From a bacterium (lineage in GTDB: Bacteria; UBA9089; CG2-30-40-21; SBAY01): DNA of 11,159 nt. Shown here in pieces: positions 6,071 through 10,671 of the stretch. The DNA is taken from assembly GCA_040757115.1 (NCBI GenBank), contig JBFLYA010000124.1, positions 1 to 11,159 of the forward strand, in the 5' to 3' direction. Numbering within the stretch: the stretch's first letter is position 1; the number at the start of each line of letters is the position of its first letter. The notes beneath the pieces were generated by a model that did not search any database, was not told where the DNA came from, and saw only the letters and a program-made list of their open reading frames with translations. The position numbers were made by a program, and so were the translations under genes.

Positions 6071-6422
6071 AAACCACGAAGGGCACGAAGACCACGAAGA
6101 AAAAATATTGTAACTATTCAGTAATTATTCAGCCACAGATTAACACGGATAAATAGCAGAGGACAGAGGGCAGAAGGCAGAAGGCAGAGGGCAGAGGACA
6201 GAGGGCAGAAGGCAGAGGGCAGAGGACAGAGGGCAGAAGGCAGAAGACAGAGGGCAGAGGACAGAGGGCAGAGGACAACAGGAGAAAAACCCTTTAGCCT
6301 AATTACGGACACGGATACCGGACACGATTCACGAATTTTCCGTGTTTCATCCGTGTCCATCTGTGGCTGAATAGTTACGATTTGGTTTATAATTCTTCGT
6401 GCCCTTCGTGTTCTTCGTGGTT
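6071..6422. repeat. Composite long inverted repeat downstream of mfd
   Basis: Two arms face each other across a spacer of about 200 bases. The outer arm at 6072-6101 pairs with 6393-6422 at 26 of 30 positions and is made of three 9-bp CACGAAG-type units on each side. GTAACTATTCAG (6110-6121) pairs perfectly with 6367-6378. The inner arm 6126-6150 pairs with 6349-6373 at 23 of 25 positions, around the words CACAGAT and ACACGGAT. The left arm carries a duplicated TATTCAG segment that the right arm lacks. GGACACGGAT at 6307-6316 is perfectly complementary to 6349-6358, so the right arm has an alternative partner. No transposase is inside. It begins 31 bases after the mfd stop and could end transcription from both sides. 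I see it as a non-autonomous palindromic repeat of the kind common in environmental genomes. Confidence 0.85.
6155..6273. repeat. 7-bp tandem repeat, 17 units, consensus GRCAGAR
   Basis: Seventeen head-to-tail 7-bp units fill 119 bases. Three variants, GACAGAG, GGCAGAA and GGCAGAG, are interspersed; the first unit is AGCAGAG and the array breaks down at GACAACA (6274-6280). One strand is purine-rich with a single C per unit. The order of variants suggests duplication of multi-unit blocks. The array sits in the loop of the surrounding inverted repeat. Reading it as protein gives only a monotonous Leu/Cys/Pro/Ser/Ala string, so it is not coding. Copy number probably varies between strains. Confidence 0.95.
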
Positions 6423-7042: not shown

Positions 7043-7558
7043 TCATCCTCCCAAACCAGTCAATTTTCCAGCTGCCTTGGCAAGAGGATTAAGAATTTTC
7101 TCTACCAATTCAATTGAAGCCGACTCTTTACCTATCCGAATCTTCCATTTTCCATCCTTGTAGGTAGCCTCCCCTTTAATAGTTGCAGCAAATAATATCA
7201 TAGCTGCTGCTGTGCCAACAGCAAGGATGATACCTGCAAACATATCGTCATCCTTGTATGTCTTCAACTCTTCGGCTAAGATTTTTTCTAGTCCAGGTTG
7301 TTGCGCCATGGCTAATAATATGTTTCTGGCACAGTCAGATGCGTCCTTAGCATCCAGGGTTTTCCCTTTTTCATCAGACGATAATTTAAAAATCGGAGAT
7401 AACTCTTTAGATCCCTTAATTTCTGCAGGAACTAAGCCGATTAATTCTCCTTCACCCTCTTCAAGACCGCTGAAAATTTTTCTGCTAAAATGGTTAAAAA
7501 AACGCGTGACTTGAAAGTCGTCAAATTTGGTTATTTGTTCTATTAGTTTTTGTGACAT
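7043..7558 (-). CDS. Small single-pass membrane protein coupled to the CHAT protease gene
   Basis: I do not recognise the family of this 171-residue protein. It has a mostly hydrophilic N-terminal part (1-104), one hydrophobic stretch at about 106-127 (MFAGIILAVGTAAAMILFAA) preceded by DDD, then GEATYKDGKWKIRIG, which looks like a beta-hairpin, and a C-terminal amphipathic helix from about 148 to 166. There is no signal peptide. The start is ATG 7558, because GGAGG at 7564-7568 lies five bases upstream. A longer in-frame reading would begin inside the upstream gene at 7597 with no such site. The start codon lies two bases past the stop of the CHAT gene, so the two are almost certainly cotranscribed and translationally coupled. 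It may be the substrate, effector or membrane anchor of the CHAT protein; that is inferred from position and topology only. Confidence 0.85.
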   Translation of the reverse strand: MSQKLIEQITKFDDFQVTRFFNHFSRKIFSGLEEGEGELIGLVPAEIKGSKELSPIFKLSSDEKGKTLDAKDASDCARNILLAMAQQPGLEKILAEELKTYKDDDMFAGIILAVGTAAAMILFAATIKGEATYKDGKWKIRIGKESASIELVEKILNPLAKAAGKLTGLGG

Positions 7559-7560
7559 TT

Positions 7561-9918
7561 TTACCTCCAATCTCCAATTAGTGAAAAGGCGGCCCAATGG
7601 TACGGGTCGGAAGTTTTGTCAGTATTCTTGAATTCAAGAACCGTGTTGCGCCAAGCTATAGCCCGGCTGTTGCCCTTCTTTAGCCAATAATTATAAAAGG
7701 TTGTGGCAAATTGGGAAGTTGTTTGTGCCGAGGTTTGCCAGTTTGTAGATAGAATACTGGTCGCTCCATTTTGTAAGAAAGCCCATTCTAATCCTAAGGG
7801 ATCCCCACCGAAACCCCGCTTTGCAAGGCCACTTACACAAGCCTGGAGGGTTACATGGCTATTGGAGAAGTCTAATTTTAAATCTAAAATTTTTTCAGGA
7901 GACAATATATGTTCTTCTCCTTCACCTTTACCCAAAATTTCCAGGTCTGGTAAATCTTCGTTAGCCGATAATATTAGACCGGCTGATTTAAAGGGATTAG
8001 GATCAATTTTTAATTTACCATCAGGGAATCGTCCGTGTGTTGCAAAATGTAATAACTTATCTTGAAGGTTTGTTACGGATAGTTTTCCTATGTCAGCCTC
8101 CTCGTGGACTAACATTGTGCCTCCTTTCATATGTTTATTCAGCCATTTACCGGCTTCTTTAAAGGCATTAACCTTGGCCTGATTTTCCAAGTCTTGTCGG
8201 GAAGGCACCTCAACATGAATAAAATACTCTGGGATTTGAGCATTTCGTTTAAAAATTTGGTCTAAAGAATGCGCTCCCGGAATACGGGAAAGAGAAAAGA
8301 GTTCTACTAATGGCCTGCCATTCACTTCCATATAATGAAATGGGATAATCAGTAGTGCATCATGGGGTGAATAACATAAATGTTCGCCTTCCTTAATCTG
8401 TCCTTCATCCAATAACGGACCAATAAACTCAATGAGTCGGCTTAACTGTTGGGGAACATCATTAGGAATTCTGGGCCCAAAAGGATTAGATGGATCCGGT
8501 TTACCCCACAACTCAGGATTACTAATAGAACCCAAATAATTAATACTTTCTTTGGATATAGCAACCTTGGTAGCCTCAATATGTCCTAAAGAGGTTTGCA
8601 TGGCACAAAACATCCAATCATCATCCACGAAAGTTGTTAAATAATGGCTTGAAAGTTCTTTCATCCAGTTAGGAAGTTCATTGAGAGCTTTGGAGAATTC
8701 CCTTTCGGTAGCAGGTTTCCCTGTTTTTTTAGTTTGGATGTCTGCGAGAATTCGGCTTTTACTGGCCTCAATTGCTTCCATGAGTTCTTTATATCGTCCT
8801 AACTTGTAAAACAATGTACAAAGGGAAGCATATAAATATGGATAACGCTCGCTTAAACGAGCCCTTTCAACAGGATCAGCTATTTTACTTCTGGCATTTT
8901 CAATATTTGTCCTTATTCTCTGTAGTTGTTCCACTGCTTGTTCTTCACGATTTGTACGGTTGTAAGCCAGATATAAAGACCAACAAGCCTCATTTTCCGT
9001 ATCAGGAAAATGATGTTCCTTCATCCAATCTCTTCCAAAAATTAAGATGGGTTCTATCTTAGCAATTTCTTCAGGATCATTACCCTTTTCTGGATCAGTA
9101 AATAGATAACTGGCATCAATAATTTTTTGTTTGACGGTTAAAACATTAAGGGCACCCGAAGTTCCAAGAACTTCTGAATCTATGATTACCCCGGCTATAT
9201 CCTTCAAACTTTTATAATACTCCAACGAATCTTCTTGAGTTTCCTCAGTTTCTTTAGCACATCCAAGGGGTCCCAAAACATCTATAAGCTCTTCCCTGCC
9301 AGGACATTTAACTTTACCAAGTAAGTCCGTTCCGCCTCCCTTATGTTGATCAATTCGGTATTTTAGTGCCCGGTATTGAACCTGGGTGAAAGTTGGGAGG
9401 GAAGATTCATCTATTTCGTTCAAATGTTTCTCTGCCTCATCGTATTCTTCCAAGTCTAATTCAGATTCAATCCTCTTGAGTAAAACCATATAGAGGTTAT
9501 CTGTATCACCAATTGATCGGAGCCATTCAATAGGCTCATCAATCAATTTTATGGTGTCCTGGTGCAGTCCTATGTTTTGAAGAGTGGTCATCCAATTCAA
9601 AGCTGCTCGACCTGCAATCATTCTTAAAGTCATTGTGTCACCCTGGTCAGCTTCGTAACCTTCCCGGGCCAATAAGTAACATGATTTTGCTATCCTTTTA
9701 CCCAATTCATAATTTCCTGATAGCAGACAACCATGAGCCAGGAAATCCATAGATTGGGGGACCATTTCCGGAATGGAACTTTGTGCGGATTGTAAGGCTT
9801 CTTCCTTGAAAGGCATTGATGGACAGTCCTCTACAAATTCGATTCTTTCATTTTGATTGCCTTTCTTAAAAATTTCAAGAATCTCATTAACAGATAGATT
9901 ATCAATAGAAGAAATCAT
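7561..9918 (-). CDS. CHAT-domain caspase-like protease with helical TPR-like N-terminus
   Basis: This 785-residue protein ends in a CHAT domain (about 510-785), a cysteine peptidase fold related to caspases and separase. The catalytic pair is visible: H628 in LHFATHGRF and C694 in LQACVSG. The following FGGDPLGLEWAFLQNGA, FYNYW and the C-terminal DPYHWAAFSLIGDWR are typical of the domain. The cysteine context differs from the common LSAC(E/Q)T form. Residues 1-500 are helical, with TPR-like segments near 65-200 and 310-400 and an ASKSRILAD stretch near 385, as in other TPR-CHAT proteins. No membrane segment or signal peptide is seen, so it should be cytosolic. ATG 9918 has AAAGGAG eight bases upstream. 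TPR-CHAT proteins are known as regulated proteases in immunity, for example Csx29 with type III-E CRISPR; no CRISPR genes are in this window. The coupled membrane protein gene downstream is a plausible partner. Confidence 0.92.
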   Translation of the reverse strand: MISSIDNLSVNEILEIFKKGNQNERIEFVEDCPSMPFKEEALQSAQSSIPEMVPQSMDFLAHGCLLSGNYELGKRIAKSCYLLAREGYEADQGDTMTLRMIAGRAALNWMTTLQNIGLHQDTIKLIDEPIEWLRSIGDTDNLYMVLLKRIESELDLEEYDEAEKHLNEIDESSLPTFTQVQYRALKYRIDQHKGGGTDLLGKVKCPGREELIDVLGPLGCAKETEETQEDSLEYYKSLKDIAGVIIDSEVLGTSGALNVLTVKQKIIDASYLFTDPEKGNDPEEIAKIEPILIFGRDWMKEHHFPDTENEACWSLYLAYNRTNREEQAVEQLQRIRTNIENARSKIADPVERARLSERYPYLYASLCTLFYKLGRYKELMEAIEASKSRILADIQTKKTGKPATEREFSKALNELPNWMKELSSHYLTTFVDDDWMFCAMQTSLGHIEATKVAISKESINYLGSISNPELWGKPDPSNPFGPRIPNDVPQQLSRLIEFIGPLLDEGQIKEGEHLCYSPHDALLIIPFHYMEVNGRPLVELFSLSRIPGAHSLDQIFKRNAQIPEYFIHVEVPSRQDLENQAKVNAFKEAGKWLNKHMKGGTMLVHEEADIGKLSVTNLQDKLLHFATHGRFPDGKLKIDPNPFKSAGLILSANEDLPDLEILGKGEGEEHILSPEKILDLKLDFSNSHVTLQACVSGLAKRGFGGDPLGLEWAFLQNGATSILSTNWQTSAQTTSQFATTFYNYWLKKGNSRAIAWRNTVLEFKNTDKTSDPYHWAAFSLIGDWR
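7564..7568 (-). promoter_or_regulatory. Ribosome binding site of the small membrane protein gene, inside the CHAT gene end
   Basis: GGAGG, read on the minus strand, comprises the last coding bases of the CHAT gene just before its TAA and sits five bases before ATG 7558. It decides the start and indicates translational coupling. Confidence 0.75.
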
Positions 9919-10324: not shown

Positions 10325-10671
10325 TTAATATGAAGGGGGTGTCCAGTCAATGCCCGCATCAGCCGCCATACCCATTAAATCGCCAACGCGACTCTCATAG
10401 CGTTGACGTGCAAGATCATCCAATTGGTGCATTTGTGTTTGGGCTTGCATGAGCATCTGCGCAATTTGAGCTTGTTGTTGGGGATTCAATTGGCTATTGT
10501 TTCCTTGAGGGATATGAGTCAACATTCCCTCAATTTGGGACAACATCTGATTGAAGTTTCTCTCTGCGTGCCGTACAGCCACTTTTGCCAGCCATACAAA
10601 AGACACGACCCAAATGACCCCCCGGCTACCGATAAAACTGCACCTATGATGAAAATCCAAAGAATATCCAT
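10325..10671 (-). CDS. Small N-terminally anchored membrane protein, frameshifted at a G6 run
   Basis: I do not know this family. GGAGG lies seven bases before ATG 10671, and that frame reads MDILWIFIIGAVLSVAGG, an obvious membrane segment, before running out at TGA 10519-10521 after 50 codons. A different frame is open to TAA 10325-10327. It carries VIWVVSFVWLAKVAVRHAER, a Gln-rich helical part (about 55-95) and the end AGIDWTPPSY. The frames join seamlessly at six G (plus-strand C 10618-10623). One extra G would give a 115-residue protein with a long hydrophobic N-terminus and a soluble helical tail. As written the gene is split. This could be a sequencing or assembly error, a true disruption, phase variation or ribosomal slippage. 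An annotation starting at TTG 10660 would miss the real start. It lies on the same strand as the CHAT gene but 406 bases away, with its own promoters. Confidence 0.75.

Follow-up and report, generated by a model that had tools for sequence, protein, structure and literature searches.

The stretch of DNA analysed here, referred to as the window (11,159 nucleotides; contig C124 in a draft genome of 4.3 Mb whose phylum is small), carries in tandem the genes of a predicted CHAT caspase-like protease and of a small single-pass membrane protein, and sequence comparison identifies a related pair in Rhizobium leguminosarum. In animals programmed cell death is driven by caspases, a group of proteases of which CHAT is a bacterial relative. 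By analogy, the two products could form a membrane-tethered two-gene CHAT protease module working like the EACC1-caspase pairs, a reading which is preferred here but held tentatively. The features of the window are the following:

7043..7558, minus strand: gene of the 171-aa single-pass membrane partner, with its own ATG at 7558
7187..7243, minus strand: membrane segment MFAGIILAVGTAAAMILFA, residues 106-124 of the partner, with a central small-residue patch (located by hydropathy; coordinates computed from the ORF)
7559..7573, minus strand: coupling junction, comprising GGAGG, the CHAT stop TAA and the two bases before the partner ATG (read together with that ATG: GATTGGAGGTAAAAATG)
7561..9918, minus strand: gene of the TPR-like/CHAT protein, 785 aa with an ATG start, with a helical TPR-like N-terminal half and a C-terminal CHAT caspase-like protease

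The CHAT domain (PF12770) occupies residues 498-783 of the 785-aa protein, with E=1.5e-31 and 110.3 bits against a Pfam profile cut-off of 24. The catalytic motifs, HFATHGRF (containing His628) and LQACVSG (containing Cys694), are unbroken and both are conserved with the Rhizobium relative, the two proteins having L-[QA]-ACVSG at the cysteine motif while most CHAT proteins have LSAC. By its domain and its intact His/Cys dyad the protein is a CHAT caspase-like protease of predicted activity, and the first-pass annotation, which had described an intact His628/Cys694 protease of this type, is upheld by both the Pfam match and the motifs. Residues 1 to about 190 were modelled as helical hairpins by AlphaFold2 run without relatives (low confidence, pLDDT mostly 50-83); we infer the label TPR-like from these hairpins, because the Pfam TPR models fell below cut-off on this protein.

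The Shine-Dalgarno sequence GGAGG of the partner lies inside the last CHAT codons, and the junction sequence confirms the earlier statement that the partner gene starts two bases past the CHAT stop. As read from these signals, both genes are arranged for coupled translation. Their GC is the same as that of the flanking genes. Being both long, placed in tandem and recurring in Rhizobium, the two genes are confirmed as a pair beyond chance ORFs. Further upstream on the same strand, 5' of the CHAT gene, a 111-aa glutamine-rich ORF with no family match was observed (10325-10660, minus strand).

With respect to the partner, the ORF listed as 184 aa merely begins at an upstream TTG, and its own ATG gives 171 aa. 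A single membrane segment was found (hydropathy 2.32 at residue 106), with AVGTAAA as the centre of the membrane helix, and the C-terminal helix (residues 149-166) has a hydrophobic moment of 0.61; hydropathy and moment thus agree with the earlier description of a 171-residue protein with one membrane segment and an amphipathic C-terminal helix. Amphipathicity is higher still in the N-terminal helix 16-33 (0.69). Single-sequence AlphaFold2 (pLDDT only 45) predicts helices within residues 3-29, a loop at 30-69, helices at 70-103, a beta-hairpin at 129-142 and the helix at 149-166, with a further helix where the membrane segment ends. Neither this predicted hairpin nor the helical-hairpin N-terminus of the CHAT protein had been mentioned in the first-pass annotation.

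The profile search that had been proposed for the 171-residue protein matched no known family, with nothing above threshold in Pfam and nothing in NCBIfam, PADLOC-DB or the PDB sequences. EB_dh (Pfam, E=0.035) and phrog_14484 (PHROG, E=0.0098) were considered as its family and judged chance matches. Searches for relatives with the partner sequence alone returned none, whether from plasmids, from phages, from 60 sampled relatives or from elsewhere in its own genome, while contig scans by exact 8-residue peptide patterns were empty, probably due to the patterns chosen, and count as weak evidence, not as absence. Moreover, the anti-phage models of PADLOC-DB 2.0.0 matched neither of the window proteins, nor did PADLOC models match the Rhizobium proteins.

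The closest CHAT protein found (WP_167378990.1; 27% identity) is encoded on the plasmid NZ_CP016290.1 of Rhizobium leguminosarum Vaf10. It gave E=1e-34 in a tblastn search of plasmids, with the next match far behind at E=1e-11, and aligns over 482 aa; a tree built from 47 CHAT domains places the window and Rhizobium proteins as sisters with support of 100/98. Immediately after the Rhizobium CHAT gene, overlapping it by 4 bp (ATGA), comes the gene of a 247-aa membrane protein of no known family (WP_065284197.1). The window and Rhizobium partners align at residues 77-136 of both, on the same diagonal and with one 1-residue gap per side, and the positions common to them include AR-IL------P---------L----DD---AG--L--GT. 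The aligned stretch is only 61 aa long and the similarity weak, with a BLASTP single-comparison E=0.002; its score was reached by 7-11 of 3000 shuffles (p about 0.003), and out of 390 ORFs (100-400 aa) from the loci examined the Rhizobium protein gave the top score to the window partner. Each of these statistics is modest, but none of them takes account of the common diagonal or of the matching place in the genome, which are additional evidence. The common core consists of the membrane helix and the helix preceding it, not of the loop; the Rhizobium protein has an N-terminal region unlike that of the window partner, plus a second hydrophobic segment.

The neighbours of the window pair are housekeeping genes on the other strand, namely mfd and the gene of a PD-(D/E)XK nuclease, and no defence genes were seen adjoining it; with only these two genes nearby, the window therefore offers no support for a defence role. 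Between mfd and the pair lies an intergenic stretch of about 1 kb, which contains a 17-copy tandem array of the 7-base unit GCAGAGG (6156-6277). In Rhizobium the pair belongs to the following island:

NZ_CP016290.1, 841-24837, all on one strand: plasmid island with several nucleases, a trypsin-NucA fusion and the CHAT pair

The run before the pair comprises a His-Xaa-Ser system, a PLD-like gene, an S1/P1 nuclease, a Trypsin_2-Endonuclease_NS fusion and a hydrophobic protein, and that after it an endonuclease/exonuclease/phosphatase gene, a heparin lyase-like gene and a DpnII restriction system. Trypsin-NucA operons, mostly alphaproteobacterial, were described as predicted conflict systems by Kaur et al. 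2020 (PMC7159879). The fusion near the Rhizobium pair resembles their System 3 in joining Trypsin_2 to Endonuclease_NS, but it is absent from the window contig and its association with a CHAT pair was seen once; this single co-occurrence is only suggestive. With regard to the defence-gene neighbours looked for by the first-pass annotation, the Rhizobium pair lies inside a nuclease/protease cluster, and the window pair has no such neighbours. As a marker for an alphaproteobacterial genome GcrA was also considered, and discarded, its sole match lying on a phage-like contig.

The distribution of the pair was assessed by reading the neighbour genes of more than 25 other CHAT loci, from the same genome (two loci) and phylum, from other phyla, and from plasmids of cyanobacteria, Burkholderiaceae, Azospirillum, Hymenobacter, Deinococcus and Streptomyces. 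The partner was not recognisable beside any of them, and the pairing therefore belongs to this rare CHAT subgroup. The subgroup, scarce in all the collections examined, was present in one genome of 386 across the domain, the window's own; the other species of the genus examined have no close relatives of the CHAT protein, nor have 80 and 395 genomes of two other phyla (best E 1e-16 to 7e-21), and viral and phage collections yielded no relatives. As regards the pairing across distant genomes that the first-pass annotation anticipated, one clear instance was seen, that of Rhizobium. Its broader proposal of a protease paired with a membrane effector is sustained as far as the CHAT protease, the unclassified small membrane protein and the recurrence within the Rhizobium nuclease cluster are concerned, but this support does not extend to the partner being a substrate or a membrane-damaging effector.

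Several of these loci have features of their own. Two proteins encoded 3' of CHAT genes were rejected as partners, a 243-aa Paraburkholderia protein and a 260-aa protein of another phylum, both without TM segment, family match or visible similarity; the latter follows its TPR-CHAT gene after 38 bases (locus L053, 2079-2900) and has no Pfam or PADLOC match. Contig C56 of the window's genome (9263-13307) encodes a 1137-aa CHAT protein with N-terminal CHAT, an NTPase-like middle and a TPR tail; 5' of it lie a zinc-ribbon-like ORF of 68 aa and the gene of a multi-TM protein of 143 aa, which weakly matches the Pycsar membrane effector model PycTM (E=0.0013). In three Burkholderiaceae plasmid loci the TPR-CHAT gene is found directly 5' of a two-partner secretion pair (ShlB/FhaC-type transporter and filamentous haemagglutinin), two of them being adjoined by type VI secretion genes.

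Many TPR-CHAT genes are without a partner and stand beside CHASE2, DUF928 or secretion genes, which is consistent with an ordinary role of the window TPR-CHAT protein in signalling or envelope stress, its operon neighbour being unrelated or only structural in role, with no conflict system involved. The housekeeping neighbours and the GC match of the window pair to its flanking genes fit such a role as well. Nevertheless, the window and Rhizobium pairs agree in gene order, in tight spacing and in a recognisable partner core, and this explanation is regarded as rather improbable.

Caspase-type proteases cleave gasdermins, freeing membrane-damaging fragments, and the partner might accordingly be conceived as both substrate and effector of the CHAT protease, cleavage in the loop at about residues 30-69 or past the membrane helix releasing a fragment that damages the membrane. 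The long low-confidence loop between helical parts and the two amphipathic helices of the partner would suit this role, and adjacent protease-substrate pairs are established, such as Csx29, which cuts the adjacent Csx30 in type III-E CRISPR (PMC10028731), and caspase or trypsin with nucleases (PMC12799240). The window pair is like Csx29/Csx30 in combining TPR-like and C-terminal CHAT regions, a His/Cys dyad and an adjoining possible target gene, and like the bacterial gasdermin systems in having a caspase-type protease gene beside that of a possible membrane-acting protein. However, Csx30 has 565 aa while the partner has 171 aa with a TM segment, and compared with gasdermins the partner is much shorter and bears a single constitutive TM segment; no gasdermin family or PDB sequence matched it, its fold model being of low confidence. 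Length and layout agree in this respect with the first-pass annotation, for which the partner was by these features neither a gasdermin nor Csx30. The Csx29 profile gave a weak match on the CHAT protein (E=0.045, residues 675-782), and the identification as Csx29/CASP was rejected, with 12.6 bits against a cut-off of 300 and no CRISPR-Cas neighbours (no Cas7-11, Csx31, sigma factor or CRISPR among the window ORFs). Furthermore, the core kept in Rhizobium is not the loop, and the N-terminal region and number of hydrophobic segments differ there, which speaks against a substrate role. Such a role is deemed unlikely and ranks second to an EACC1-like one.

The coupled operon and the small single-TM protein with amphipathic helices would also be compatible with a pair resembling toxin-antitoxin systems, in which the membrane protein would be toxic and would be held in check by the CHAT protease degrading it. 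A 785-aa TPR-CHAT enzyme would nonetheless be an unusual antitoxin, for which no precedent was found, and the Rhizobium partner has 247 aa and two hydrophobic segments; this possibility is considered very remote.

That a related pair recurs within the Rhizobium nuclease cluster suggests that the two genes form a real, if so far putative, system with the protease at the membrane. In the EACC1 systems, a protein with one conserved TM helix, a central small-residue patch and alpha+beta flanks forms a two-gene unit with a caspase, and is proposed to be a membrane sensor activating it (PMC7159879); the literature also casts it as the constant component in such pairs. By analogy, the partner may work like EACC1, the CHAT enzyme and a different membrane protein filling the caspase and EACC1 roles. 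The partner would lie in the inner membrane, and its non-membrane parts (the N-terminal helices or the beta-hairpin) would hold the TPR-CHAT protein there. It would keep the protease inactive until a signal from the envelope or from infection arrives, possibly sensed via the membrane helix; the released protease would then cut at least one protein of the cell, or neighbouring effectors, leading to arrest, death or effector release. Known switches of bacterial caspase-like proteases include RNA-guided complexes, nucleotide signals and NLR-like sensors. If the proposal is true, a CHAT protease gated by a dedicated small membrane protein adds envelope sensing to these, and the pair offers a simple two-gene model for keeping such a protease silent. 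It would suggest, too, that the EACC1 plan stands among several membrane partners that are unrelated or have diverged very far, and that family-profile searches miss.

A further lead comes from the Streptomyces plasmid NZ_CP109439.1 (NBC_01483, 1077-4902), where a CHAT gene with the motif LRACSTG lies. Behind it come a helical ORF of 110 aa and one of 83 aa with an EACC1-like layout (membrane helix, hairpin, helix), each overlapping the gene before it, by ATGA and GTGA, respectively. The layout of the two small ORFs mirrors that of the window partner. As a third homologous pair the locus was rejected, the similarity being unconvincing, and it is kept as a lead only: the score of the window partner against both ORFs end to end was reached in 67 of 2000 shuffles, that of the shared-core profile in 551 of 3000, and the CHAT tree is neither for nor against grouping the Streptomyces protein with that of the window (p-AU 0.37). 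It is doubtful that the window, Rhizobium and Streptomyces loci are members of a new and widespread class of highly divergent, two-gene, membrane-gated caspase-like immunity, composed of TPR-CHAT proteases and fast-evolving small membrane proteins that would share only the membrane helix, hairpin and helix plan of EACC1.

Finally, the comparison with the EACC1-caspase systems (Pfam PF19953) shows both likeness and difference. Both have two genes, a small single-TM protein and a caspase-superfamily peptidase, as well as small residues at the TM centre and alpha+beta flanks (the hairpin and helix of the window partner coming from the low-confidence model), and the order of membrane helix, beta-hairpin and helix recurs in the C-terminal half of the partner. 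On the model, this layout appears nearer to EACC1 than to a pore former. In contrast, the EACC1 gene lies 5' of its caspase while the window protease gene lies 5' of the partner; the EACC1 systems combine an N-terminal caspase with a variable C-terminal effector while the window enzyme is a TPR-CHAT protein with C-terminal protease, and the window partner bears an extra helical N-terminus of about 100 aa. PF19953 did not match the window partner at E<=10 (hmmscan), and a genome search with it was empty and equally silent in every control genome. Profile comparison by hhalign of the window partner with five EACC1-like proteins, taken beside caspase or other second genes (two Pfam-confirmed), gave nothing, and the Rhizobium partner showed a hairpin-level hint only against EACC1 profiles. 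Thus, the identification of the partner as EACC1, convincing by eye, was rejected on the negative profile tests and the reversed gene order, and is therefore unsupported. The combination of a small membrane protein and a caspase-type protease is of a kind already known, and the CHAT pair would be a variant of that kind.
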